Source: Cunninghamella blakesleeana (lineage: Eukaryota; Mucoromycota; Mucoromycetes; Mucorales; Cunninghamellaceae). From it: 64,000 nucleotides of DNA. The stretch spans positions 3,899,501 through 3,963,500 of the forward strand of contig JAFCIZ010000005.1 of the NCBI GenBank assembly GCA_017871115.1. Direction: 5' to 3'. Under the pieces are notes generated by a model. That model made no database searches, had not been told where the DNA came from, and saw only the letters and a list, made by a program, of their open reading frames with translations. Both the position numbers and the translations under genes were made by a program. This document shows, piece after piece, positions 13,495 through 50,587 of the stretch. How positions within the stretch are numbered: the first letter of the stretch is position 1; each line of letters begins with the position of its first letter.

Positions 13495-15220
13495 TTAATT
13501 CACTACTTCAACTTCTTTCTTTTCTTGCTTATAATCACTACCATTGCTTGAACCAGATTCAGCTTGATGTTCTACACCTTCAGATTTTTCATCGGCTTCG
13601 TCAAGATCCTTACCGGTAGTTTCAGGCATGAAGAAGGCAATGAATAAGAAACCGACGAAATTGATAACAACAAAGACGATGAAGGCATTCTTTCCTAAAC
13701 CATCACTCATGTAAGGCCATAAGAAGTTGATAAGGAAATTCATGAACCAGTTGGAAGAACTACCAAGAGCAGAAGCGGAAGCTAAAGCATGCATAGGAAC
13801 TAATTCAGGAGCAATGAACCAAGGAATGACACCACAACCAAGGGAATAGAAACCAATGTAAATAACAGCAGCAGCAATAACAACGCCACCAAGGTGAGTA
13901 TTATGGGAACCGACTACCATTAAAATACAACCAACGGTACAACCAAATAAGGAAGCCAACATTAAATTCTTACGACCTAATTTATGGACAAACATGACAG
14001 AGACTAAAGTAGCAATAGTGTTGACAGCACCATCAATTAAAGAAAGAGTAGTAGCTTGTTTTCTGTCACCATTGAAGATATCAGTGAAAATACCAACGGA
14101 ATAAACAGACATAGGACCAATACCACCAGCTTGGTTATAAGCTTGAATTACCATGATAATAATTGTACGCCATGAGATATGTCTATCTTTGAAACTAACT
14201 AAATCCCAAATAGACATGGTAGGAGTAGCATTTTCGGTTTCGCGTTGACGAGCAGCTAACAAAGCAGCAAATTCTTCTTCGATATCAGCACCAGCACGTA
14301 ATTTTTGTAAAGCAGCAGCAGCACGATCGTATTCTTTATTAGCACAGAGACGACGAGGACATTCGACAGTGAAAACTAATAAAAGAACCAATTGAATAGC
14401 AGCAAGAATGGCAGAGATACCCCAGAGGAAACGCCATAAAGGATCATAACTCATATAAAGACCACAGACTTGAGCAAATAACACACCAGCATTTAAGAAG
14501 AGTTCAAACAAACTACCTAAAGCACCACGAGCTTTGTTGGTAGAGATTTCAGATACATAAATAGCAACAGAAGAACCGCACATACCTGCTGCAATACCAA
14601 CAATAGCACGACCAATGGAATACATAGGTGCATTAATACCAACAGCAGAAATTACGTTACCAATAATGAATAAAAGACAGGTAATCATAATGTTATGACG
14701 ACGGCCAAAGTAGACGTTACTGTATTTTGAAACAAAAGATCCTACCACACCACCAATAGGATAGGCAGAAATAGTATGACCCCTATAATATATATTAAAT
14801 AAATATTTTTAAAACCAAAAAGAAAATATAATTATATTAATGAAAAGAACTTTTTATGTATCGCGCGGATTTAACAACAATAATAATTATAATAATTGTA
14901 TATTTTATTTACCATGTAAGATGGTCCATAGGCATACAAGGTGGTAAAGGTCCTCCAGAATTACCACCAGTACAGTTAGTAATAGCTTCGGTAGGCATAT
15001 TAGGTACACCTATATAATATTAAAATAGAATATAAATATAATTGCATAAGTATTTATTTATGTGTTTATTTTTTGACATATTATGAATCTATGGAATTGA
15101 GTGAATAATATATTTACCAATAGCCCAACCAACTTGGAAACCTGAAAATGCGGCAATAGTAGCGCATACAGCCATATATAATGGGTAACCCATTTCATGA
15201 GACTTTGTTTGTGTTGTCAT
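13495..15220 (-). CDS. MFS sugar transporter (hexose porter family)
   Basis: Plasma-membrane sugar/proton porter of the major facilitator superfamily. Minus-strand exons 15118–15220, 14913–15009 and 13495–14782 give 495 residues, the usual length. It starts MTTQTKSHEMGYPLYMAVCA; membrane helix 1 contains FSGFQVGWAIG. The first extracellular loop is Cys- and Gly-rich (NCTGGNSGGPLPPC). Family marks: FGRRHN between helices 2 and 3, GRAIVGIAAG, RGALGSLFE, QAYNQAGGIGPMSVYS in helix 7, HKLGRKN, PWFIAPELVP and the C-terminal PETTGKDLDE. The usual PESPRWL after helix 6 is altered to VECPRRLC. The tail is acidic and hydrophilic. Resembles GLUT-like glucose porters; substrate not determined. Confidence 0.93.
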
Positions 15221-30014: not shown

Positions 30015-30231
30015 TAATTTTAAATTATAAAAAAAAATTCATTTTTTATTTTTTTTCAATCTCTTTTTATTTTAGATTACTTTTTTTTTATACTTGTATA
30101 TTTTTTAATATATATATATATATATACATTTGTTTCTTTTCTTTTTTTTTTCTTCTCATTGTTAAACTATTAAATTTTGATTAATTTTTTTTATTTTATA
30201 CATTGTGAAAAATATATACAACTAAATAAAT

Positions 30232-33200
30232 ATGATAAACTATTCTATAAATGTCAGCATAGCTGGTATGACCTGTCAACACTGTGTTAAAACAATAACA
30301 GAAAGATTACAAAACTTACCTGGAGCTGAATCAGTTAATGTAGATTTGGATCGTGAACTTGGGTCTTTAAACTTAAACACAGAATTATCAGTCAATGATA
30401 TCAAAACACTTGTTTCAACGAGTATTGAAGATTTAGGTTATGATTCAGGTACACCAAACGTTTATAATCTTGACGCAACCGATAACATTATAACGGCAAA
30501 GCTTAAAGTGGAAGGCATGACTTGTTCAAGTTGTGTCCATGGTGTTACTTCTGTTCTTAGTGATTCTCCTTTGGTGATTCCAGAATCTGTTCAAGTATCT
30601 TTAGAAACTCAACTGGTGACTTTCCAAATCAAGAAACAATCTCTTACACAACAAGAAAAAAGTGAAATTATAAGTTTGGTGGATGATATGGGCTATTCTG
30701 TATTACAATCTGATTTTTTTGTCAGTGAAGATAAAGGTCAGCAATTATTATCTAATTTGAAGGAAAATGAAGAAGAAGTGGATTATACTTTACAAACTGC
30801 AACAGTGTCTATAATTGGTATGACTTGTTCGCATTGTGTTAATACAATCACAACTGGATTACAATCTCTTCCTGGGGTACTTCAACAAACGGTGGATGTT
30901 AATTTAGATAAAAACTTGGCTATTTTAACTTTTGAAAAAAATACAATTACTTCTCAACTTTTGATTAATACTATTGAAGACCTTGGTTATGAAGTTTCTC
31001 ACCCTCCTCGTATTGTAAATGGAAGGAAAACAAATGAACCTCAACTTATAGAAACATTAACAACAGCAACAACAAAAATTGGATCAGCAGATGGTAATAA
31101 AAAGGATGATGAGCTATCTCAACTTCCATGGATAAAAGTAGTTATGAGTATTAGTGGCATGCATCAAGAATCATGTGTGGATGTTTTATCTTCTGCTTTT
31201 TATACTTTACAAGATGTTCAACCTAATTCTGTACATATTTATTTATCAACCGATATGGCTATGTTTATTTGCAAGAATCCCAATAAAGATATTATTCAAG
31301 ATTTGGTGGAAAGTCGTGGTTATAAAGTTGATAATATTCAAATGATTCATAATTTAAAAGAGCCTGCTGCTGCTATGGTTACTGTTGATGACGGTATTGA
31401 TAAACTGAGTATCAAGTCTCCTTCGATTATATCCCTTGGTGCAGTTTCTGTGGTTTCTAATGATGATCTTAATCTTAAAAAAATATCTTTTAATATTTCT
31501 GGAATGACTTGCTCTAGTTGTGTAAATACGGTCGAAAAGGGATTAGCTAAATTAAATAGTGTAGATCCTACATCTGTCAAGGTGAATTTATTAACTGCTA
31601 GTGCAACTCTGAATGTGCGTGGAGATGTTCTTACTGATCAAGATATTATAAGAGCTGTTGAAAATATGGGATATACAGCATCCAATGTATCTATCGTGGT
31701 CCTGGAAAAAAATTCGGTGTCAACAACAACTGATATTTATCAAGTAGGTTTTATCGTCTCTGGTATGTTTTGTGATTCATGTGTTGAAAAAGTCCGTTCG
31801 GTTATATCTATTATGCCTGGTGTCAATAAATCAAGTATCTTTGTTGATTTAGATTCTGGTTATGTGAAATTTACTATGGATAATAATACTGTAACTCGTC
31901 AAAAGATTTATAAAGATATACAACAATTGGGTTTTTCTGCTGATAGCATTGATATCAAAAAAGAAACTTCTGAAAATGAAACAACTAAAAAAAGTGGTAG
32001 TAATGGTAGCGGAGATGCATCTAAAATCACAACAACAACAACAAGATTAACTGTAACTGGTATGACTTGTAGCTCTTGTGTTGCTAATATTGAACGTGCT
32101 ATGCTCAAACAACATGGTATTAAAAGTTGTCAAGTAAATTTATTAGCTAAATCAGCAGTAATTGTACATGATCCTAACATTATTGGTGCTCGTACTTTAG
32201 CTGACATGATTGAACAAATTGGGTATAAAGCCGAGTTGGCTGGTGTAGATGCTTCTGATGGACTGTCTGACCAACGTGCTGCTATGCGTGAAACTATGCA
32301 AAAAGAAATCAAAATATTAAGAGATCGATTCTTATGGTCTTTATTATTTGCTATCCCTGTAGCTTTAATATCTATGATTTTCTTAATGGCTGTTCCTTCT
32401 TCCTTTGCTGTACATCAAGCATTTCAAACAGAAGTGACAGGTGGATTAACTGCTGCTGATTTAATATTATTTATTCTATCTACTCCTGTACAATTTTGGT
32501 TAGGTTTCCCATTTTATAAAAAGGCATGGCGTTCTCTTTACTATACCCATACAGCTAATATGGAAACTCTTGTGGCTCTTGGTACAACAGTAGCTTATCT
32601 TGCATCTGTTGGGTCTGTTATTGCTTCTATTGTACGTGCACACCAGCCTAAAGATATGGCTCATATGGTTCATGGTATGGAAGATGCTGGTGAAGCGATG
32701 TCTATGAATTATTTTGAAACAAGTGTACTTTTAATTACTTTTATTCACCTTGGTAAATGGCTAGAAGCTTTGGCTAAAGGAAAAACTGCTGAAACAATTA
32801 CTAAATTAATGGATCTCCAACCTGAAAAAGCTACTTTGGTTCAAGTTAAAAAAGATGGAAATAATGAAATCTTATTGGAACATGAAATAGATTCAAAAGA
32901 AATTCAAGGTAAATAGATATATATTTAGTTTATGTAATATATATATATAAATATTTATTTTTATTTTATTTTTATTATTTTTATTATCATTTTATTTTAG
33001 TTGGTGATATTTTAAAAGTAAATGCTGGTGGGCGTATACCTTGTGATGGTAAATTATGGCGCGGTAATACAACAACAGATGAATCGATGATTACCGGTGA
33101 ATCTATTCCTGTATCTAAACAAGCTGGTGATGAGGTGATCAGTGCTACTATTAATTTGACTTCTCCTATATATATACGTGCTTTAAGAGTTGGGTCTGAT

Positions 33201-35227
33201 ACTACATTATCTCGTATTATTCAAATGGTTCAAGATGCTCAAGCATCACCAAAAGCTCCTATTGAACAAGTAGCTGACAAAATTTCAAGTGTATTTGTAC
33301 CTATTGTCATTATTTTGGCTATAGTAACCTACATTGTTTGGCAAGTATTATCTGTAAAAGGTTTATATCCTTCTTGGTGGATAGAAAAAGGAGAAAGTTC
33401 TGCTGTCTTTTCAATTATGTTGGGTGTATCTGTTCTTGTCATCGCTTGTCCATGTGGTCTTGGTTTAGCTAGCCCTACAGGTAAACTAGAAAAAAAAATT
33501 AAATAATATAATTATAATTATAAATACTTATATGTATTGTTATTAATTTTTTTCCTAAATTTTTTTATTTTCATTTTATTTTATTACAATAGCTGTTATG
33601 GTTGGTACTGGTGTAGCTGCTCGATATGGTGTTCTTGTTAAAGGTGGTGGATATGCATTAGAAATGGCTAGTCGTATTACTTCTGTAGCATTTGATAAAA
33701 CTGGTACATTAACACTTGGTAAACCTGTTGTTACAGATAGTTGGCTTAACTTTAATAAAGACTCTGAAAATGATGAAGGTATTGCTGCAATTTGGAAAAT
33801 CATTGGTAGAATGGCATCAATTAGTAATCATCCTCTTTCTAAGGCTATTGAAAAAAATGCACGTATAACTTTATCCTATATTGCTAAAGGCAATTCTATT
33901 ACTGAGGCTGTTAATGAAAAAACAATACAAGAATTCGGAGAAACAATTGCAAATGGTGATATTGATGAAGAAGATGGTGATAAAGAAATAAACAAAAAGG
34001 AATGGTTTGAAGGTGTTACTGTTGTTCATGCTAAAGAAATACCTGGACGTGGCATATCTGCTACAATTACCTTACATGATTCTATTGCTAAACATTTATC
34101 TGGAAAATTAAACGGCGTTAAAGTTTTGAACGTTTTTTTGGGAAATAAAGCTTGGATGGATGAAAATTACGCCCGTTATGAAACAACCAAACAGGCTACT
34201 ACCCAACAAAATCAACAGATCCAATGGCAGGATAAAGGAAATTCTATAGTTATGTTTTCTGCATCCCCTGTTGCTGGTCATGTAGAAGAAGGACTCTCTC
34301 ATAAGGATGGCTGTAATAATTCTTGTGCTTGTGTAGTCTGTCAATGTAGTTCATCATCTATTTGTTGTAGCGCCTCTCGTACGATGATGCTTGGCCAAGT
34401 AGCTATCGCTGATATTCCTCGCCCTGAAGCTATTCAAGTGGTTGAACAATTACGTAAACTTGGTATAGAAGTTTGGATGGTAACGGGTGATAATGAACGC
34501 ACCGGTCGCGTTGTAGCAGCTCAATTAGGTATTGATAAAGATTTTGTTTTAGCTGGTGTAAAACCTGAACAAAAGGCAGATAAGATTCGCAATTTACAAC
34601 GTCGTGGATTATCTGGTGACCAGCAAAACAAATCTTCTTCGTGGTTTTCTAAACTTTTTAAAAAGAAAAACAAACATGGATTCCATCAAGCTGTTGTAGC
34701 TATGGTCGGTGATGGTATTAATGATTCTCCTGCTCTTGCTCAAGCTGATGTAGGGTAAGTTTAATTAATTCATACTCTACATTGCTATACTATACCATAC
34801 TAATATAGTATAACATAATATAGTATCAAAAATATTTATATATAAATACTTATTCACTTCCTCCTTATTTTACATGTTTTATTTTTATTTTATTTTGAAA
34901 AATAGTATTTCTGTTGGATCAGCTACTGATATTGCCATTGAAGCAGCTAGTATTGTTTTAATTCGAAATAATTTAATGGATTTATTAGCTATGTATGATA
35001 TATCAAAAACAGTTGTAAGACGTATTCGATTAAACTTTTTATGGGCCTTTATGTATAATGTATGTGCTATTCCAATTGCTGCTGGCATTTTATACCCACC
35101 AACTGGTAAAGGATTACCTCCTTATATCGCTGGACTTGCTATGGTTGCTTCAAGTATTAGTGTAGTGTGTTCAAGCTTATTGCTTCGCCTTTATCGAGCT
35201 CCTAAATACACTAAATTTAAGGAATGA
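30232..35227 (+). CDS. CCC2: Copper-transporting P1B-type ATPase (Ccc2/ATP7 family)
   Basis: Pumps Cu(I) into the secretory pathway, where it loads multicopper oxidases such as Fet3-type ferroxidase. Exons 30232–32908, 33001–33480, 33593–34754 and 34906–35227 join in phase to 1546 residues. Seven N-terminal HMA repeats: GMTCQHC (12), GMTCSSC (95), GMTCSHC (196), GMHQESC (309, CxxC lost), GMTCSSC (424), GMFCDSC (511), GMTCSSC (610). Pump marks: TGES, CPC at 1042–1044, DKTGT (Asp 1087), SNHPL (His 1132), TGDN, VGDGINDSP. A seven-Cys cluster (1293–1311) is inserted before the TGDN segment. Yeast Ccc2 has two HMA repeats and human ATP7A/B six, so seven is unusual. Substrate Cu(I) is inferred from CPC plus the HMA array. 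Confidence 0.96.
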
Positions 35228-40128: not shown

Positions 40129-40845
40129 GATTTAAAAATATAATTAAAAAAAAAATCAAACAGGCAAAAAAAAAAAGAAAAACTTTATATTTTATTATTC
40201 CATTCTACATAATTTATTTTATTTTACATATTTATTTACATTATTTAATATTTAATAAAAATGGTATTTACATATTATTATTATTTTAAAATAAATAATA
40301 TATACAAAAGAAACTTATCCAATTATAAGAGTCACGTGTAGTTTAGAATACATTGGTCTTATGATCACCAACCTATGTTAAAATAAAAAAAATTTAAGAA
40401 TCTCGCTCGTCATCTGGAAAAAAAGGAGGAGGCTTTTATCATAAAGCCAGCCACCATTTTTTTTTAAAAAAAACTAATTCTATATCTATTTTTTTTCTCT
40501 CTTTTCCCCAATATTTTTTTTTTATCATAAAATAAAAACTTATTCGTTACTATTGTTATTAGTTATTATTTCTAGTAAAGTTACTTATATTTTAATACAA
40601 AAGGTATGTTCAAATAATAAAAAAAGTAAAGTCTAAAAGATAAAATAAGTTTCCCCTTTTTTTTTTTTCTATATTTTTTCAAAATATAAAAAAGTCTTTT
40701 CTCCGCTTTTTTTTTTTCTCTCTTTAATATAATACTTTTTTTTTATATATATATATATTTTCTCACTGGTGCCTTATTTATTTCCATCATCCTATTCACT
40801 ATTATTTTAAAACTATATAATTTACTCATATATTCTTAGTTAACC
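40129..40845. other. Intergenic
   Basis: Contains a T9A8 tract at about 40457–40473 and several poly-T and CT tracts upstream of the C2H2 gene. The patch at 40320–40440 is less AT-biased but has no recognised feature. Confidence 0.55.
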
Positions 40846-42156
40846 ATGTCATCTACTCTTACGTTCCAATTACGTCAACAACAAGAAGATAATAATAATA
40901 AACATGATGGTAACCAAGTTACTAACCTTCCTTCTCCACCTAATTCATCTTGTGGTGAAGACACTACCGCTACTACTACAACTAATGCTGTTACTCCAAC
41001 AACAACTGCATCTACAGAAAATAATAAAATACCTATAATAAATACACCTACACCTACACCTACACCTATTTCTCAACAAAGAAGGGATTCTTTGCAGTCT
41101 CACTTTAGTACTCTTACTTTACAAGCCATATCAAACTCACTTCCTGAAAACTATACCATAGACCATTCTTCTATTAAAGCGTCTTTACAACAAGCATTAA
41201 GTAATACAAAGTTAACCTCTCCACCTCCTCCACCTTCGTCGATTACAATGAAAGCTTCTTCACCTATTCCTATTGATAATAATAATAATAATAATAATAA
41301 TAGTATTAATTCACCTCTACGACGTCATGGTACCACCCATCCTAATGGTTCTTATCGGTCTGAATCACCCATTCTTACTTCACAGCATTTATCACCGGCT
41401 TCAGTTGCTGCAGGAACAGGTGGATTAACCATTCGTCATCGTCGCCCATCCACTATTGATCATCGTACTAAAAAAAATAATAATAATGGCCATTCTACCT
41501 TATTATTATCCGAATCACCTAATATATCATCAAATCAATTATTGAAAGCATCTACTTCTTTACCATCTACAGCAGTAGCAATGAATAACAATAATTCAAA
41601 TGGACAATATAGATGTGATGATTGTGGAAAAGTATACAAGCATCCAAGTTGTTTAACAAAACATAGATGGGAGCATTCGGAAGAATGGGAATTGACTTCA
41701 AAATTATTATTAACAAAGCATCAACAAGTGCAGATGTTGGAAGCAGCTGCTATTTTAGTCAGTATGGATCCTCAACAAAATAATAATGGGCTTTCTACTT
41801 CGATGGGCTCACCCCTTTTAAAACATCATTCTTTTAATAACAATAATATTAATCGCCATTATGGATATCAAAATAATAATAATCAGCAGGATATTAATAA
41901 TAATAGTGATATGAATACAGATGATGATGAAGCGGATGATGATATTAATGTTGATATTGTCAATGAAGATGATGAAGATGAAGACGAAGAAGAATCTATT
42001 CATATTGATGATGATGATGATGATATATCTATTGAAATGGATCAAGATGATGATAATAATCAATCAACTATGGATACACAACATACTACCTTTCCTACCA
42101 TGATTGGGTCTACCCATGCCATGTTACCTTCTTCTTTTGCAACCAACACTGTCTAG
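40846..42156 (+). CDS. C2H2 zinc-finger protein, low-complexity
   Basis: Probable transcription factor or nuclear regulator, single exon, 436 residues. One C2H2 finger at residues about 256–276 (CDDCGKVYKHPSCLTKHRWEH), directly followed by SEEWELTSKLLLTKHQQVQM, a helical extension. The N-terminal half is rich in Thr, Pro, Ser and Asn with several SP dipeptides that could be phosphorylated. The C-terminal quarter is very acidic (runs of Asp/Glu with intervening hydrophobic residues) and could be an activation domain (inference). A single finger alone usually gives weak DNA specificity. Family known, targets unknown. Confidence 0.85.
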   Translation: MSSTLTFQLRQQQEDNNNKHDGNQVTNLPSPPNSSCGEDTTATTTTNAVTPTTTASTENNKIPIINTPTPTPTPISQQRRDSLQSHFSTLTLQAISNSLPENYTIDHSSIKASLQQALSNTKLTSPPPPPSSITMKASSPIPIDNNNNNNNNSINSPLRRHGTTHPNGSYRSESPILTSQHLSPASVAAGTGGLTIRHRRPSTIDHRTKKNNNNGHSTLLLSESPNISSNQLLKASTSLPSTAVAMNNNNSNGQYRCDDCGKVYKHPSCLTKHRWEHSEEWELTSKLLLTKHQQVQMLEAAAILVSMDPQQNNNGLSTSMGSPLLKHHSFNNNNINRHYGYQNNNNQQDINNNSDMNTDDDEADDDINVDIVNEDDEDEDEEESIHIDDDDDDISIEMDQDDDNNQSTMDTQHTTFPTMIGSTHAMLPSSFATNTV

Positions 42157-44162
42157 TTTATATATATGCTCGTTTGCATTTATTTTTATTTTATATTTTG
42201 TATATTTTTATTCTTTAATTTTTTATTTTAATGGATATATTGAAACTACCAATTTGCTTTGGATTTTGAATTATCTTTATTTTTATTTATTACCTTTTTT
42301 TTTACATGTATGTCGTGTTTTTTTTTTTTTTTATTTTTTTTTTTTATTTTTGTATTTCAACTATTACTCACCCACCCTCTCTACCTTACCTTTCCATTCT
42401 CTCTCCCTCTATTTTTTTTTAACTTTTTTTTTTTTCAATCTTTTTTTTTAAAAACTTAGTAGTATTATTATATTCATACTTTTATTAGCAAAGTGTTTAT
42501 TATTATAATAATCCGAATGTCAAATGTTTATAATCGAGAATTAGATTATTCCTCATTTAATAAAATATTAATTTCAAATAAAAATTTTAAATTCGTATAA
42601 AAATATTAAAGAGAGAAAGTGATCGGCAACGGTTTGTTACATGTTTATATTACATTGTACTTTGAGTTATATACAATCAATGTTATTTAAAAAAAATTGT
42701 AACTCCTCATTATCAAACTTCATTACCATTTGATCTAATTATTTATTATTGTTTTATACTAATTAGTTATATAATCCTATTTCTTTTCTAATTTTGATGA
42801 ATAATCTTCATCTGAGATCTATTTTTTGTAATTTTTTTTAGACATCAAACGTTTAACATTTTCCGTGATCACGGCAAAAAAAAAATTTTTTTTTGTTGGT
42901 AAAGATGAATTCCAAAATAAGTTTAGTATATATAAGGTTCCGAATACATTTTTTCATATAAATAAATGTATAAATATATAGATAAATAGATAATTTTTTA
43001 AAAAAAAAGTTATCAAATAGATATTAACTTATAAATTAATTTTTTTTTTTTACTTTTTATGCTGAAAGTTTTCAATGCATATTTTTTGATTTTTTTTTTT
43101 TTTTTGATTTTACTATATGTTAATGTTACAATAATCAAGAGTAATAGTCATTGATTGACAATCAATATTTTTTATCAACTTATCTATTTCTATTGATAAT
43201 AAAACGTTTATAGGTTTTATATCCATATAGTATGTATTTATTTATTTATACTCTTATTTTTCCTAATTAGGATATAAAAAAAAGAGAAATAGAAAGAATT
43301 GCCTTGTTTAGTTTTTTTTTTAAGTATGCTATATAATTGGTTATTTATATTTTTATATGGGTTATCCGGGGTAAACAACAAAAAAATTATCATACCATAA
43401 ATAATATTAAAATATATCATTTATTTTCTTATACTTAAAAAAAAAGATCTGATAATCAATCTTTTTATGGTGGGACAAAAAAATGAAAAAACATTAGAAT
43501 TGTATATGACTATATTATTATAGCATATAATATTGGTTTTATACTATTTTTTTTTTAGAAAATTATATGAAGTATATATTTTATTTTTTATAATGTACAG
43601 TATTCATTGTAATGCCACTATTGATTCATGTTAAAAATAAATAAATAAATAAATAAAATAATAACCAAGTCAGAGTAAAGATTGATTATCAGATGGCAGC
43701 TCTTAATCTGATAACAATCAGCTGGGTTTTCTTTTTCTCCTACATTTTTTTTTATGTAACAATAGATCTTAACCTGACAGAAGAGCCTCTATATTTTTTT
43801 TTTATCGTAATAATAGTTATAACAGTAAATATTACTTTAATGTAGTATGCATTGATTTTATTAGAAAATATATAACGAAAGTTATATTCATTTTTATATG
43901 TATGTATTGTTATAGTAATAAAAAAATGATCGATTATTAAAAAATAATTAATTTTTTCAGGATGTTTAAATTTATATTATTATATATAAATATGGATCAA
44001 TATTTTAAAAAACCTTAAATAGAAATATTAATATATATATTTTCATATAAAAGCTTAATTTGATCAGTGGTTATTTTTTCTTTCTTTCTTTGGTTTTAAT
44101 TTTAAATTTTTCTGTGATTTTTCTTTCTATCAGATCCTAATTTTTTTTTAAAAAAAGGTTCA
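42157..44162. other. 2-kb upstream region of first ferric reductase
   Basis: No gene seen. The proximal half (43447–43780) holds the iron-type GATA sites listed separately. A T9A7 tract (44141–44156) lies six bases before the reductase ATG. The distal half is the C2H2 gene 3' flank with poly-T/C tracts. Confidence 0.6.
43447..43780. promoter_or_regulatory. Iron-type GATA cluster, first ferric reductase
   Basis: Three exact ATCTGATAA sites: 43447–43455 (+), 43686–43694 (as TTATCAGAT, minus) and 43706–43714 (+). They fit ATCWGATAA, the site of fungal iron-sensing GATA repressors (Urbs1, SreA, Sre1, Fep1 type). Also ATCAGCTGGGTTTT at 43717–43730 and GATCTTAACCTGACAG at 43765–43780. The same set recurs in the same order before the second reductase. 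Expected effect: repression in iron-replete cells (inference). Confidence 0.8.
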
Positions 44163-46849
44163 ATGAAATTTTTTTATTTTTTTTCTCTCTTCCTCTTTTA
44201 TTATTTTCCTTCAATAAATGCTCGTCAAGGTATCCCACCTCTTTTAGCCGCCTGTGAAGGTGCCTCTAATCCATTTTTATTTAGCAATTGTACTGAAAGG
44301 GTATTTAATGACCCTGATTGTTTATGTAATAGCACACCTTGGTTAGGGTCTATGGTCACTTGTATAGATCAATACTCATTTAATAATACTCATGAAAAAA
44401 ATGACGCATGGGCTCTTGTCACAACATATTGTCCTGATCTTAGCTCTTTGGCAAACCAAATATCGTTTCAAGACCTTTTAAATAATGCAACCAACCACCT
44501 TATTTCTGTACCCAGTGGTGAAAAAAAACACATTATTTATAATCCAACACGTTTCAATGAATCTGTAGTCCTTCCTATCAAAAGAACTGTTCAAGAATTT
44601 AATAAACAGCTTGAATATGGCCTTATTTATGGCGGTGCTGGTGTAGCATTCGTTTTTGGAGTGATGTTACTTGGTATGTTGAATAACTTTTATCATTATT
44701 ATTATTCCTTACTACAAGGTTCTTTTATCAATAAAAATAATAAAATGAAGATAATAAAGAATAAACCTAAAGCTATTCCAGCTTCCTCTTCTTGGATTAA
44801 AAGTCTACGTCGCCATTTCATCAATCCTTCTTTATTATTGGATGGGGTGCACTTAGAACATGCTTCGTGGTTTGGTATTCTGGTTACTTATCCAACTCGG
44901 TTAGAAAGTATCTTTGTATTTTTATATGTTGCTTTGAATATTTATCTTTTGTTTCCAAATTATGATTTATTTGTAGAAAATACTTATTGGGATGATCTTG
45001 GTTTACAACTTATTCGGTATATAGCTGATCGTTCTGGTGAAATGAGTTTTGCCCAATTACCTTTAGTTTACTTATTTAGTGGCCGCAATAATATTATGAT
45101 TTGGTTAACTGGTAATAGTATATAGAAATATATAAAAAACTACATACTTATATACGTACATGCATATATATATGTATGTAAGTCTGTATAATCAACTATA
45201 TTCCGTTGGTTTGATACTAATTAATTTTATTTTTATTTTTATTTTTACTTTCTATTTTTTTTTTAAATAATACAAATAATTAAATTTATAATAATATTCA
45301 GGTTGGAGTTATGATCGTTTCATGGTAGCTCATAAATGGACATCACGTGTCATGTTTTTCCATGCCGTCGTTCATTCCATTACTTATACCTGTTATCCTT
45401 TTCGAATCAGTGGCTGGGAAACCTACGTTACTTACTATCAAGACGTTTATTTTGTTTGGGGTGTTGTAGCAACTGTTCTAGGTGGATTTATCTTATTATT
45501 CGCTATGCCGCAATTACGTCGTGCTTTTTATGATATATTTTTATATACACATATCGTTTTGGTTGTACTCTTTACAGTTGGATGCTGGTATCACGTATAT
45601 TTAATTGAAGATCATGAAAATATGGCTTGGCTTTATGCATGTTTTGCTATTTGGGCCTATGATCGTATTGCTCGTTTGGTACGTGTAATTTATTATAATG
45701 TGCTATTAGTGACAACTAAAAGCAATATATTAAGAAAAGCGCATGCTGATATCATATCTGGTACAGATTGTATTCGATTAACTGTGGATGCAAACAAAGC
45801 TGGTCTTAGTCAAAGAGTGCCTGGTGTCTTTGTTTATATTTATATCCCTAGTGTTTATTTTTGGCAATCCCATCCTTTTACAATTGCATCATGGTATCAA
45901 CCTTCTATCGATTTACTATCGCCACAATCAACATTAAGATCTATCCATGATAAAACAGTAGCTACTACTATTGATGTACCCTCCTCAGGCGTTGAAAAAA
46001 AATCAAAAGAATGCGAGCATTCCACTTCCACCTCCTCTTCGTCTATTTCTTCAGATCAGCAAGATATTACAAGTATATCTTCTGCCAAGGAAAACAGAAA
46101 TTCTACTACTTTTGAGCTTTTAATTAGACCACAACAAGGTATGACGAAGAAATTGTATGAAAAAATTGAAAAGGAAGGTCGTGATGGATGTGATATATAT
46201 GTAGTGATTGAAGGACCTTATGGCCATACACATCCTATTTTACAATATGATACTGCAATTTTAATAGCCGGTGGGGTTGGTACAACAGCAACCGTTCCTT
46301 ATTTACAAGAGGCTGTTTATAATGCATCTAATATGGCTGTTAGACATTTGGTATTTATCTGGGTTGTTCAAAATGAAGATCAACTGAAATGGTCTCAAGA
46401 TGCTATCGAAAAGTGTATTTTACATCTTGATCAACAACAGCAACAGAAAATATTAAATGGTACAAATGATCATGACATTACGGATATTCAAAGTGAAAAA
46501 ACCAGCTTAGCTTTGGATGTATCTATTTATGTCACTCGCTCAAAAGCTCCAACTGATAAGAATTCGAAAAATAAACTACAGGGATCATCTATTTCATATG
46601 GAGTTCGACCTGATTTAAATAAACTAATTGGAAAATACATTGATATGGCATCTGGTAATTCAGTAGCTGTGTTACACTGTGGTCCTGTTCGTATGAGTGA
46701 TCAAATTCGTCAAATCACTGCTGATCAAGGTAAAAAAAAAAAAGTGAGAGAGAGAGAGAGAGAGAAAAAAAAAGTATTAATACTAATCTTCTTTTTTTGT
46801 TCTTTATAAAATAGGAATTCCTTATTTTGAAGAAGCCTTCAATTGGTAA
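44163..46849 (+). CDS. Ferric-chelate reductase (FRE family), copy 1
   Basis: Plasma-membrane flavocytochrome that moves electrons from NADPH via FAD and two haems to extracellular Fe(III) or Cu(II). Exons 44163–45111, 45302–46729 and 46815–46849 give 803 residues. Signal peptide about 1–20; extracellular domain with Cys 31, 43, 53, 55, 67 and 90 (PDCLC core), then a membrane helix near 155–175. Haem ligands appear as two His pairs 14 apart: 327/341 and 400/414. FAD motif HPFTIAS at 507–513; NADPH motif GGVGTTAT near 640; terminal EEAFNW. A Ser/Thr-rich linker (about 535–590) interrupts the FAD/NADPH region. Tandem paralogue at 47883 has the same length. Probably iron-repressed through the upstream GATA sites. 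Metal preference unproven. Confidence 0.93.
44732..44990 (+). repeat. Identical tract 1, copy in first reductase
   Basis: 259 nt identical, by line-by-line comparison, to 48452–48710 in the second reductase. Sequence on both sides diverges. Confidence 0.9.
46117..46720 (+). repeat. Identical tract 2, copy in first reductase
   Basis: 604 nt matching 49803–50406 with one mismatch (46581 G versus 50267 A). Covers the NADPH-binding domain. Flanks diverge sharply. Confidence 0.9.
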
Positions 46850-47248
46850 TTTGGGTAATTATTCTATTTTTGTACAAGATTATTTTATTTTATTTTATTG
46901 TTATTCTTACTGTTTATAATTCATTTATATATATATATATTTATTATTGTTTATTATTATTTATTATTATTATTACTATTATAATAAAAAAAGGAAAAGA
47001 AAGTAACTAGATTAAATTATCCCAAATATTTAGTTATTTGTTTATTTATTTATTTTAAAAAATGATATATAATTGTTTATATTATAAAATGGGTTATAAT
47101 TACAGGGTGAAAAAAACAGAATATCATATCATAAAAAAGATCTGATAATCAGAAAAGCCATATTGATATAGGTAATACATACCAACTCAAAAACAACTAT
47201 AAAAAAAGCGAGTAGTTTAAGATTATTTTATTGCTAGAACATCCAATA

Positions 47249-47280
<32 letters not shown>

Positions 47281-47882
47281 CAATAATGATAATAATAATA
47301 CATATTCATTAAAATTATTTTACTTGATAATAGAGTATTCATTGCGGGGACATAACAGGTAGATCCGTTAGAAAAAATAAAAATAAAACTCAGAACGGGA
47401 TATTAATTATCAGATGGTAACCCTTACTTCATCTGATAAATATCAGCTGGGTTTTGTTTTTTTATTTTTTGTTTTTCTTATTTTCTTGTGATTCTATTTG
47501 TAATAATAGATCTTGACCTGACAGAAACAAACTATTTATCTATATTATATATATATATATATAATAACAATAATTATAATAATAGTAATATGTAGTACAT
47601 CGTTGTTTTTGATATTATTATTTATTTTGGTTTTCATTAAAAAAATTAGATAGAAAAAGTAGGTGATAATATATTTATTTTTTCTCAGAATGTTAAACTT
47701 ACTTATTTCATGATTCTATATTTGGGGCTTTATAATATATTAACTTTAAATTGAAATATCTGTTTTTTTTGTATAAATATCTCGAATAAAATTTTTTTTC
47801 TCTCTCTCTCTTTTCCTTTTACATTTTATTCAGACTGCGGATTTTGAAAAAAATTAGTATTTAAAATTTTAAAAAAGGATTA
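46850..47882. other. Region between the two ferric reductases
   Basis: No gene. Holds the second GATA cluster and a very long T-tract/A-tract junction at about 47250–47280. The first 130 nt resemble the 3' flank of the second reductase (50588–50720), which fits a tandem duplication. Confidence 0.65.
47140..47524. promoter_or_regulatory. Iron-type GATA cluster, second ferric reductase
   Basis: ATCTGATAA at 47140–47148 (+), its complement at 47407–47415 and again at 47431–47439 (+): same number, order and orientation as before the first reductase. ATCAGCTGGGTTTT at 47442–47455 and GATCTTGACCTGACAG at 47509–47524 are also shared. The distance to the ATG (444–743 nt) nearly equals that of the first copy (449–716 nt), while most bases between the motifs differ. 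Confidence 0.8.
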
Positions 47883-50587
47883 ATGAAAAAATTTTGTCTC
47901 TTATTCCTCTTCTTTATTTTTTATCCTACCTCCATCTTTGCACGAAGGCAAATCTCACCACTTTTATCAGCATGCCACGGCGCTTCTGAAAAATATTTAT
48001 TTAGCCATTGTACAAAAAGAGTATATGCAGAGCCTGAATGTTTATGTAATAGTTATGCCTATATCGGTTCATTAGCTACTTGTGTTGAAGAATATTCATA
48101 TGGTGATATCAAGGAACAGAGCAAAGCATGGACGTTTATGGATTTTTTTTGCCCAACAAGTAACTTATTGGCTAACCAAATCCCTTATCAAGATATTTTA
48201 AATAATGCTACAAAATATCTTGTCCCTGCACCACTGAATGGAAAAGAAACCAACTTGGAGGCGCCTATTCGTTTTAACGCTACAATTTTTTACCCTATCA
48301 AAAGAACTGTTCAAGAATTTAATAACCAGCTTCAATATGGTCTTGACTATGGCATACTTTGTTGCTATTTTGTTTTTGGAGTGATGTTACTTGGTATGCT
48401 GAATAACTTTTATCATTATTATTATTCTTTACCACAAGGTTCTTTTATCAGTAAAAATAATAAAATGAAGATAATAAAGAATAAACCTAAAGCTATTCCA
48501 GCTTCCTCTTCTTGGATTAAAAGTCTACGTCGCCATTTCATCAATCCTTCTTTATTATTGGATGGGGTGCACTTAGAACATGCTTCGTGGTTTGGTATTC
48601 TGGTTACTTATCCAACTCGGTTAGAAAGTATCTTTGTATTTTTATATGTTGCTTTGAATATTTATCTTTTGTTTCCAAATTATGATTTATTTGTAGAAAA
48701 TACTTATTGGAGTGATACTGAATTACAAATCATTCGTTATGTATCTGATCGTTCTGGTGAAATGAGTTTAGCGCAATTACCTTTGATTTATTTATTTGGT
48801 GGCCGCAATAATATTATGATTTGGTTAACTGGTAATGAAATATAAACACTTACTAAAAAGTAAAAGAATAAAATAAATAGAGAGGACTTATAAGAATATA
48901 CAATACATATTAATGGAGTGTTGACTATTAATTGATATTATTATTATTATTAAAATAAATAAATAAATAACCTATAATGCTATTCAGGTTGGAGTTACGA
49001 TCGCTTCATGGTAGCTCATAAATGGGCATCACGTGTCATGTTCTTACAAGCAATGATCCATTCCCTTGGTTACGTTTGGTTTCCTCTTAAAGAAGGCGGA
49101 TGGGCCATGGTTCTTTTTTATTGTCAACAAGTGTATTTTCTCTGGGGTGTATTAGCAACTGTTGTAGGTGGCTTGATTTTATTATTGGCTTTACCTTCAT
49201 GGCGTCGTGCTTGTTACGACTTCTTTTTGTATACCCATATATTTCTAGTGATTCTTTTTACTATTGGATGCTGGTATCATGTGTATTTATTAGGCGATAA
49301 TGAAAATATGGCTCCCGTCATTATTTCCTTTATTATTTGGTCCTATGATCGTGTTGTCCGCTTTATCCGTGTCTTATATTACAATATCATGTTGGCTACA
49401 GGGAACAAAGTGTTTAGAAAAGTACGTGCTGATATCATACCTGGTACAGATTGCATACGATTTATTGTCGATGCAAATAAAATAGGACTTTCCCAAAGAG
49501 TACCTGGAATTTATGTCTATATTTATGTTCCTGATGTTTATTTCTGGCAATCTCACCCTTTTACAATTGCATCGTGGCATCAGCCTTCTATTGATTTACA
49601 ATCTTCACAATCAATATTAAATGATGAGTATGGCTCAACATTATCAACTCCATCCAGTGGCTCATCTTTTATCAAAAAAAGGTCAAAAAATAATTCAACT
49701 CCCTCCTCTTCTTCATCATCATATTTAGACGAACAAGATAATGTTTATCTACCTTTATTATCAAATAAAACAGCAAACAATAATGACAAAAATACTTTTG
49801 AACTTTTAATTAGACCACAACAAGGTATGACGAAGAAATTGTATGAAAAAATTGAAAAGGAAGGTCGTGATGGATGTGATATATATGTAGTGATTGAAGG
49901 ACCTTATGGCCATACACATCCTATTTTACAATATGATACTGCAATTTTAATAGCCGGTGGGGTTGGTACAACAGCAACCGTTCCTTATTTACAAGAGGCT
50001 GTTTATAATGCATCTAATATGGCTGTTAGACATTTGGTATTTATCTGGGTTGTTCAAAATGAAGATCAACTGAAATGGTCTCAAGATGCTATCGAAAAGT
50101 GTATTTTACATCTTGATCAACAACAGCAACAGAAAATATTAAATGGTACAAATGATCATGACATTACGGATATTCAAAGTGAAAAAACCAGCTTAGCTTT
50201 GGATGTATCTATTTATGTCACTCGCTCAAAAGCTCCAACTGATAAGAATTCGAAAAATAAACTACAAGGATCATCTATTTCATATGGAGTTCGACCTGAT
50301 TTAAATAAACTAATTGGAAAATACATTGATATGGCATCTGGTAATTCAGTAGCTGTGTTACACTGTGGTCCTGTTCGTATGAGTGATCAAATTCGTCAAA
50401 TCACTGTTGATAATGGTAAGAAAATAGAAATTACAATATATAAGAATATAAAAAGAAGAAGAAGAAAAGGAAAGGAAAAAAATGTTAAAGTATAGGTACT
50501 TAATCAAATTTAATGATAAATTTTATATATTTATTCGTATTATATAAAATAGGAATTCCTTATTTTGAAGAAGCCTTCGATTGGTAA
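47883..50587 (+). CDS. Ferric-chelate reductase (FRE family), copy 2
   Basis: Paralogue of the preceding gene with the same reaction and membrane topology. Exons 47883–48831, 48988–50415 and 50553–50587; each exon is exactly as long as in copy 1, giving 803 residues. The six extracellular Cys (31, 43, 53, 55, 67, 90), haem His pairs 327/341 and 400/414, HPFTIAS and GGVGTTAT are all kept. The protein differs mainly in residues 1–185 and 320–590, whereas residues about 190–275 and 652–852 nt before the stop are almost the same because of shared DNA tracts. The diverged haem-helix region (GWAMVLFYCQQVYFLWGV versus GWETYVTYYQDVYFVWGV) suggests a different substrate or partner (inference). Terminal EEAFDW. 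Confidence 0.93.
48452..48710 (+). repeat. Identical tract 1, copy in second reductase
   Basis: Partner of 44732–44990; no mismatches seen. Confidence 0.9.
49803..50406 (+). repeat. Identical tract 2, copy in second reductase
   Basis: Partner of 46117–46720; one mismatch at 50267. Confidence 0.9.

Follow-up and report, generated by a model that had tools for sequence, protein, structure and literature searches.

Mosaic divergence and putative gene conversion in a tandem pair of ferric reductase genes of Cunninghamella

A tandem gene pair with two near-identical tracts

The window analyzed here, the whole 64,000-nucleotide stretch of contig JAFCIZ010000005.1 (Cunninghamella blakesleeana assembly GCA_017871115.1, positions 3,899,501 to 3,963,500), carries two neighbouring genes, hereafter A and B, which lie head to tail and are predicted to code for ferric reductases of the FRE type:

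44163..46849, + strand: gene A, FRE-type ferric reductase of 803 amino acids, exons 44163-45111, 45302-46729 and 46815-46849 (from the frame, splice sites and domains)
47883..50587, + strand: gene B, tandem paralogue of 803 amino acids, exons 47883-48831, 48988-50415 and 50553-50587 (from the frame, splice sites and a Ferric_reduct match)

The exons measure 949, 1428 and 35 nucleotides (nt) in each gene, as a first-pass annotation of this DNA had reported, and both genes have GT..AG introns and a single open frame of 803 residues. In A, Ferric_reduct (114.5 bits), FAD_binding_8 (51.5 bits) and NAD_binding_6 (63.6 bits; residues 632-789) all score above cut-off and follow one another in the order expected of an FRE-type ferric reductase; B, the scan of an entire protein having been that of A only, is assigned by an above-cut-off Ferric_reduct match at its locus and by its alignment with A. 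The FAD/NADPH motifs HPFTIAS, GGVGTTATVP and CGP are kept in both proteins, as are two pairs of His residues, H327/H341 and H400/H414, with the H-x13-H spacing of bis-haem ligands. Four conserved histidines of a bis-heme motif are named in PMC8065604. With motifs and histidine pairs intact, A and B both look functional. The pair very probably stems from an old tandem duplication, the ferric reductase in question being of a predicted surface type with haem membrane, FAD and NADPH domains.

The two genes share two tracts, one of which has shoulders of intermediate divergence:

44732..44990, + strand: tract 1 in A, residues ~191-275, a loop and one predicted membrane span at ~246-265 (hydropathy)
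48452..48710, + strand: tract 1 in B, pairing with 44732-44990
46117..46720, + strand: tract 2 in A, residues ~586-786, the stretch preceding NAD_binding_6 and nearly all of that domain
49803..50406, + strand: tract 2 in B, pairing with 46117-46720
44652..44731, + strand: shoulder on the 5' side of tract 1, graded, with 4 of 80 nt differing
44991..45111, + strand: shoulder on the 3' side of tract 1, within exon 1; A and B differ at 17 of 121 nt, 11 sites falling in the first 34 nt and 6 in the next 87 (synonymous divergence per site, dS, ~0.26)

Direct comparison of A with B gave no mismatch over the 259 nt of tract 1 and a single one, at 46581, over the 604 nt of tract 2, which is the identity claimed at first pass; the identical runs end at 44732/44990 and 46117/46720. 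The edges had been described as sharp, which holds for three of the four (44990/44991, 46104-46117 and 46720/46721). At its 5' end, tract 1 has a graded edge instead, with dense divergence up to 44651 followed by the few differences of 44652-44731. Divergence is only mild in what remains of exon 1 and over the initial 55 nt of exon 2. The 5' shoulder is possibly an older or repaired conversion edge, and the two shoulders of tract 1 suggest older or patchy events. Tract 2 starts after an indel-rich linker, and 9 nt separate its end from intron 2.

Elsewhere in the exons, A and B are for the most part 52-80% identical per 60-nt step. Identity rises to 80-95% next to tract 1, to 93% where exon 2 begins, to 85% at 45838-45897 and to 90% near exon 3. 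The introns, too, have both diverged. Eight diverged segments have dS values (NG86) of 0.59-1.55; the two zones that border tract 1 have 0.15 and 0.26, and tracts 1 and 2 themselves 0.00 and 0.02. The last 17 codons combine a dS of 0.00 with four nonsynonymous changes. Among degenerate codons that specify the same residue in both genes, synonymous differences were found at 0/81 in tract 1, 2/195 in tract 2 (position 46581 and the edge base 46116) and 86/293 outside; pooled, 2/276 inside compares with 86/293 outside (Fisher p=1.8e-25, for tract limits set after the data were seen). When the positions of the synonymous differences were permuted 20000 times, the longest run of such codons free of synonymous change reached at most 81, as against 150 and 92 for the two longest runs observed. 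The mosaic identity is genuine and far exceeds what chance would produce.

In DNA searches of the genome itself, each tract was recovered twice and never a third time, on which ground a third gene copy as donor was rejected. Elsewhere in the genome, Ferric_reduct matches number one on contig 1 and three on contig 2, and exon 2 of A, used as a query, matched a single place apart from A and B themselves, on contig 2 at 29%.

The tracts could also have arisen during assembly or polishing, by collapse of the two genes or by copying of reads of one gene into the other. Mis-mapping of reads in polishing can remove the last few differences between near-identical copies, and a C. echinulata protein with an A-type body and a B-type tail, P0003 (see below), could be such a chimera in another assembly. 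Here, however, the assembly consists of 12 contigs for 32 Mb, both copies are resolved with distinct exons, introns and flanks, and a mismatch survives at 46581. Moreover, polishing would hardly be able to overwrite a divergence of ~20-48%, the level usual outside the tracts, so that the tracts would have been very similar beforehand anyway. We therefore regard an artefact as very unlikely.

Comparison with orthologous proteins

Three protein searches of a database clustered at 90%, with hits limited by length, gave 49, 29 and 77 hits, and 10 hit proteins were aligned. The nearest named proteins to A are both from C. echinulata (order Mucorales), P0001 (88% over 97% of A) and P0003 (93% over 60%), which would place the window in that species group. 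As for an orthologue of B, no protein among the search hits exceeded 74% identity to B, one of the searches having scored only the 7998 candidates that shared most words.

Inside the tracts, the A and B proteins are identical (85/85 and 201/201 residues), whereas A and P0001 agree at 73/85 positions in tract 1 and at 177/199 in tract 2, that is, with 12 and 22 differences; P0003, compared in tract 2 only, matches A at 192/201. Outside, A and B agree at 65/140 (residues 1-140) and 155/265 (residues 317-585), and A and P0001 at 109/123 and 226/267 over the same two ranges. The share of residues at which A and P0001 differ is 11-14% in the tracts and 2-15% outside, and their N-terminus is no faster, with 89% identity against 85-98% elsewhere outside the tracts. 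Because A and P0001 change in the tracts about as fast as elsewhere, slow evolution can be discounted for both tracts, and A and B must have become identical there recently. The case that would have spoken for slow evolution, orthologues in which the tracts are kept identical, was sought at the protein level and not found. The C. blakesleeana protein is 75% identical to A in tract 2 and 66% in tract 1; outside, the values are 49% (residues 1-140), 58% (141-195), 78% (276-316) and 62% (317-585). The NADPH domain is among the more conserved parts across species.

These comparisons bear on whether purifying selection, on the protein or on the DNA or RNA itself, could be what holds the tracts identical. 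Although tract 2 is among the more conserved stretches across species, the differences between A and P0001 show both tracts to be free to change, and synonymous sites vary freely in the eight diverged segments (proportion of synonymous differences, pS, 0.41-0.65) but hardly inside the tracts. Coding on the reverse strand was considered as a constraint and rejected: for the two regions tested, the longest open stretch on that strand over either tract measures 61 codons. Selection of this kind is scarcely credible as the cause.

In maximum likelihood trees built outside the tracts, A groups with the C. echinulata orthologues, and a grouping of A with B is rejected by the approximately unbiased (AU) test (1.5e-11 for 398 columns and 1.7e-4 for 194). 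As to the age of the duplication, the best placement is B with the C. blakesleeana protein; B with the A clade is not rejected (AU 0.33 and 0.096), and the two correspond to a duplication before or after the split from C. blakesleeana. Inside the tracts, it is the outside topology that is rejected by the AU test, at 0.033 for tract 1 (83 columns) and 0.0023 for tract 2 (199 columns).

Probable gene conversion, its direction and its placement

Recent ectopic gene conversion between A and B very probably explains the tracts best. The proposal had been made at first pass and is now well supported: near-identical blocks, synonymous sites included, lie in otherwise diverged paralogues, with sequence of the own gene on both flanks of each block; the trees inside the tracts conflict with those outside, albeit with a Shimodaira-Hasegawa (SH) value of 0.053 for tract 1 and with a milder alternative tree standing; and the orthologues are not slow in these stretches. 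As drawn from the tract pattern and the conflicting trees, recombination between the adjacent copies, resolved without crossover, would have overwritten one copy, so that two coding stretches were recently replaced by non-crossover conversion between neighbours. Such conversion needs local similarity and would be confined to stretches that are still alike, each event renewing the likeness. Because most of the coding sequence is below 80% identity, conversion would now act mainly in those stretches, which earlier conversions probably kept alike, as the intermediate-divergence shoulders suggest. Tract 2 would be bounded by the indel-rich linker and intron 2, and homology for recombination would last in the NADPH domain because that domain is among the more conserved across species. 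In yeast, mean interlocus tracts are estimated at ~50 to several hundred base pairs, and conversion acts mainly above 80% identity, with lower rates below, according to a review (PMC3924818). Set against those estimates, the tracts measure 259 and 604 nt, and in coding surroundings that are mostly 52-80% identical per 60 nt they resemble the last islands still competent for recombination. The GC content of third codon positions, 0.17-0.22 in the tracts and 0.22-0.27 in the other stretches measured, gives no hint of GC-biased conversion.

Exchange by unequal crossing-over instead of conversion deserves mention, as direct tandem repeats are its usual substrate and as the A-type body and B-type end of P0003 could be produced by a crossover or deletion in another strain. 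A single crossover, however, gives one switch point and an altered copy number, whereas each tract is flanked on both sides by diverged sequence of its own gene and two full genes with separate upstream regions are present. We give this alternative almost no weight.

Several observations weigh against a simple history of recent conversion. The rejection of the outside topology in tract 1 is marginal, the AU value of 0.033 being accompanied by 0.052 in the Kishino-Hasegawa test and 0.053 in the SH test, and inside the tracts a tree with B as sister of A plus the orthologues is not rejected (AU 0.15 and 0.20). The recency of the events is dated by the near-zero synonymous divergence in the DNA of one assembly, not by the proteins alone. 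A single clean event would account for the graded 5' edge of tract 1 less well than several events or patches of repair. Nor do the signs of direction agree. Residue 758 is Leu in A, B and 7/8 outgroup rows and Gln in both C. echinulata proteins, a pattern that suggests copying from B to A at that place, but the overall closeness of the tract to the A orthologues would equally suit copying from A to B. In favour of conversion, Asn at residue 674 is peculiar to A and B among the 12 aligned sequences.

P0003 (482 residues, from a 16-kb contig) lacks the part that exon 1 encodes in A and B and has an A-type body, and its last 17 residues match B at 17/17 and A at 14/17. It represents either a further exchange in another strain or a chimeric assembly, and both explanations would be easiest if the tracts of that strain were near-identical as well. 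We tentatively consider the possibility, in our view short of an even chance, that the tracts perpetuate themselves as islands of conversion: two old tandem reductases of the C. echinulata group would have repeatedly exchanged the same few stretches, the only ones to remain similar enough for recombination, so that one NADPH-input module would in effect be common to two separately evolving membrane/extracellular halves under matching iron-responsive promoters (see below).

Conversion could be the right mechanism and its placement nonetheless adaptive, with selection keeping the electron-input side of the two enzymes in concert and the substrate side apart, as had been suggested at first pass. 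The part of that suggestion that stands is the coverage: the tracts comprise one predicted membrane span with a loop and nearly all of the NADPH domain, while A and B differ at the N-terminus and over most of the haem domain. Nonsynonymous divergence is, however, below dS in each of the eight diverged segments. This comparison is coarse, with dS close to saturation, but it gives no indication that the diverged parts were under positive selection. The limits of homology predict the same positions equally well, given that the linker and intron 2 flank tract 2 and that the NADPH domain is slower, and thereby explain them without selection for domain function; tract 1, by its domain limits, is not an electron-input part. 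An adaptive placement thus seems unlikely to us.

The process itself is known in animals and fungi (PMC3728101, PMC12844118), and A and B are a good new example of it. GOT1p1 and GOT1p2 of Tigriopus californicus likewise form a mosaic of low and high divergence between two duplicates, with apparently ongoing conversion, but seen across copepod populations, whereas here one fungal assembly and orthologous proteins were compared, for ferric reductases (PMC3728101). The recursive ectopic conversion described in Aspergillus flavus and A. oryzae likewise concerns neighbouring fungal paralogues and was inferred from trees; genes were split and lost in that case, whereas A and B both stay open and are converted in two parts only (PMC12844118). 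Reductive iron assimilation in Mucorales, with the three LcFRE5 genes of Lichtheimia corymbifera, involves the same kind of enzyme, multicopy and in some cases induced by iron limitation (PMC8065604, PMC4133162). A converted tandem pair is not mentioned in the retrieved text of those reports, the term 'gene conversion' occurring 0 times in PMC4133162 and 'tandem' 0 times in PMC8065604. Ferric reductases are listed among tandem clusters in another report, in whose retrieved text gene conversion figures in the reference list only (PMC2880306). In the open-licence literature, no prior description for ferric reductases or for Cunninghamella was found by title, though a Mucor paper contains the term gene conversion (PMC3116813).

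The pair offers a clean natural example, in an early-branching fungal lineage, of conversion keeping parts of two enzymes in step as the rest diverges. Trees of Mucorales ferric reductases, or dating, based on the NADPH domain could mislead, and short-read assemblies of the A/B locus may be chimeric.

Promoters and neighbouring genes

The upstream regions of A and B carry matching arrays of predicted iron-GATA-type sites, a new observation that is absent from the first-pass annotation, together with a second common module:

43447-43455 (+), 43686-43694 (-) and 43706-43714 (+): three ATCTGATAA sites in the promoter of A (motif search)
47140-47148 (+), 47407-47415 (-) and 47431-47439 (+): three ATCTGATAA sites in the promoter of B (motif search)
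43761..43782, + strand: second common upstream module AATAGATCTTRACCTGACAGAA, copy of A (exact match)
47505..47526, + strand: second common upstream module AATAGATCTTRACCTGACAGAA, copy of B (exact match)

The consensus was taken from work on SreA of Aspergillus fumigatus, in which ATCWGATAA is over-represented upstream of SreA-repressed iron genes and matches the binding sites of related factors in other fungi (PMC2610380). In both promoters the sites follow the order +, -, +, at -716/-477/-457 from the start codon in A and -743/-476/-452 in B. ATCWGATAA occurs 8 times in the 64-kb window (shuffle mean 3.6; at least 8 in 3/100 shuffles), and 6/8 of the occurrences lie upstream of A and B. For the two 1-kb upstream stretches a Markov model expects 0.11, and 6 were reached in 0/20000 runs, a figure that overstates independence because the promoters are related. 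The longer module CTGATAANNATCAGCTGGG is found exactly only before A and B in the genome, with 6 further places at 2 mismatches (reversed control: 1); AATAGATCTTRACCTGACAGAA is likewise exact only before A and B, and a single other place matches it with 3 mismatches (reversed control: 3), while AAAGATCTGATAATCA is confined to the same two places. Because these matching sites have been kept, both genes are probably iron-responsive and induced under iron shortage.

At 30226-34758 (+) lie pieces of a gene for a heavy-metal P-type ATPase, with six stretches of heavy-metal-associated domain followed by a HAD-type hydrolase part. In yeast, such copper pumps load multicopper ferroxidases, and a functional link between the ATPase and the reductases ~10 kb away is possible. 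Elsewhere in the window, a major facilitator superfamily sugar transporter is encoded at 13495-14808 (-), where Sugar_tr scores 275.3 bits, and the frame at 40840-42156 (+) is rich in asparagine and has a single weak C2H2 zinc finger that scores below the curated cut-off.

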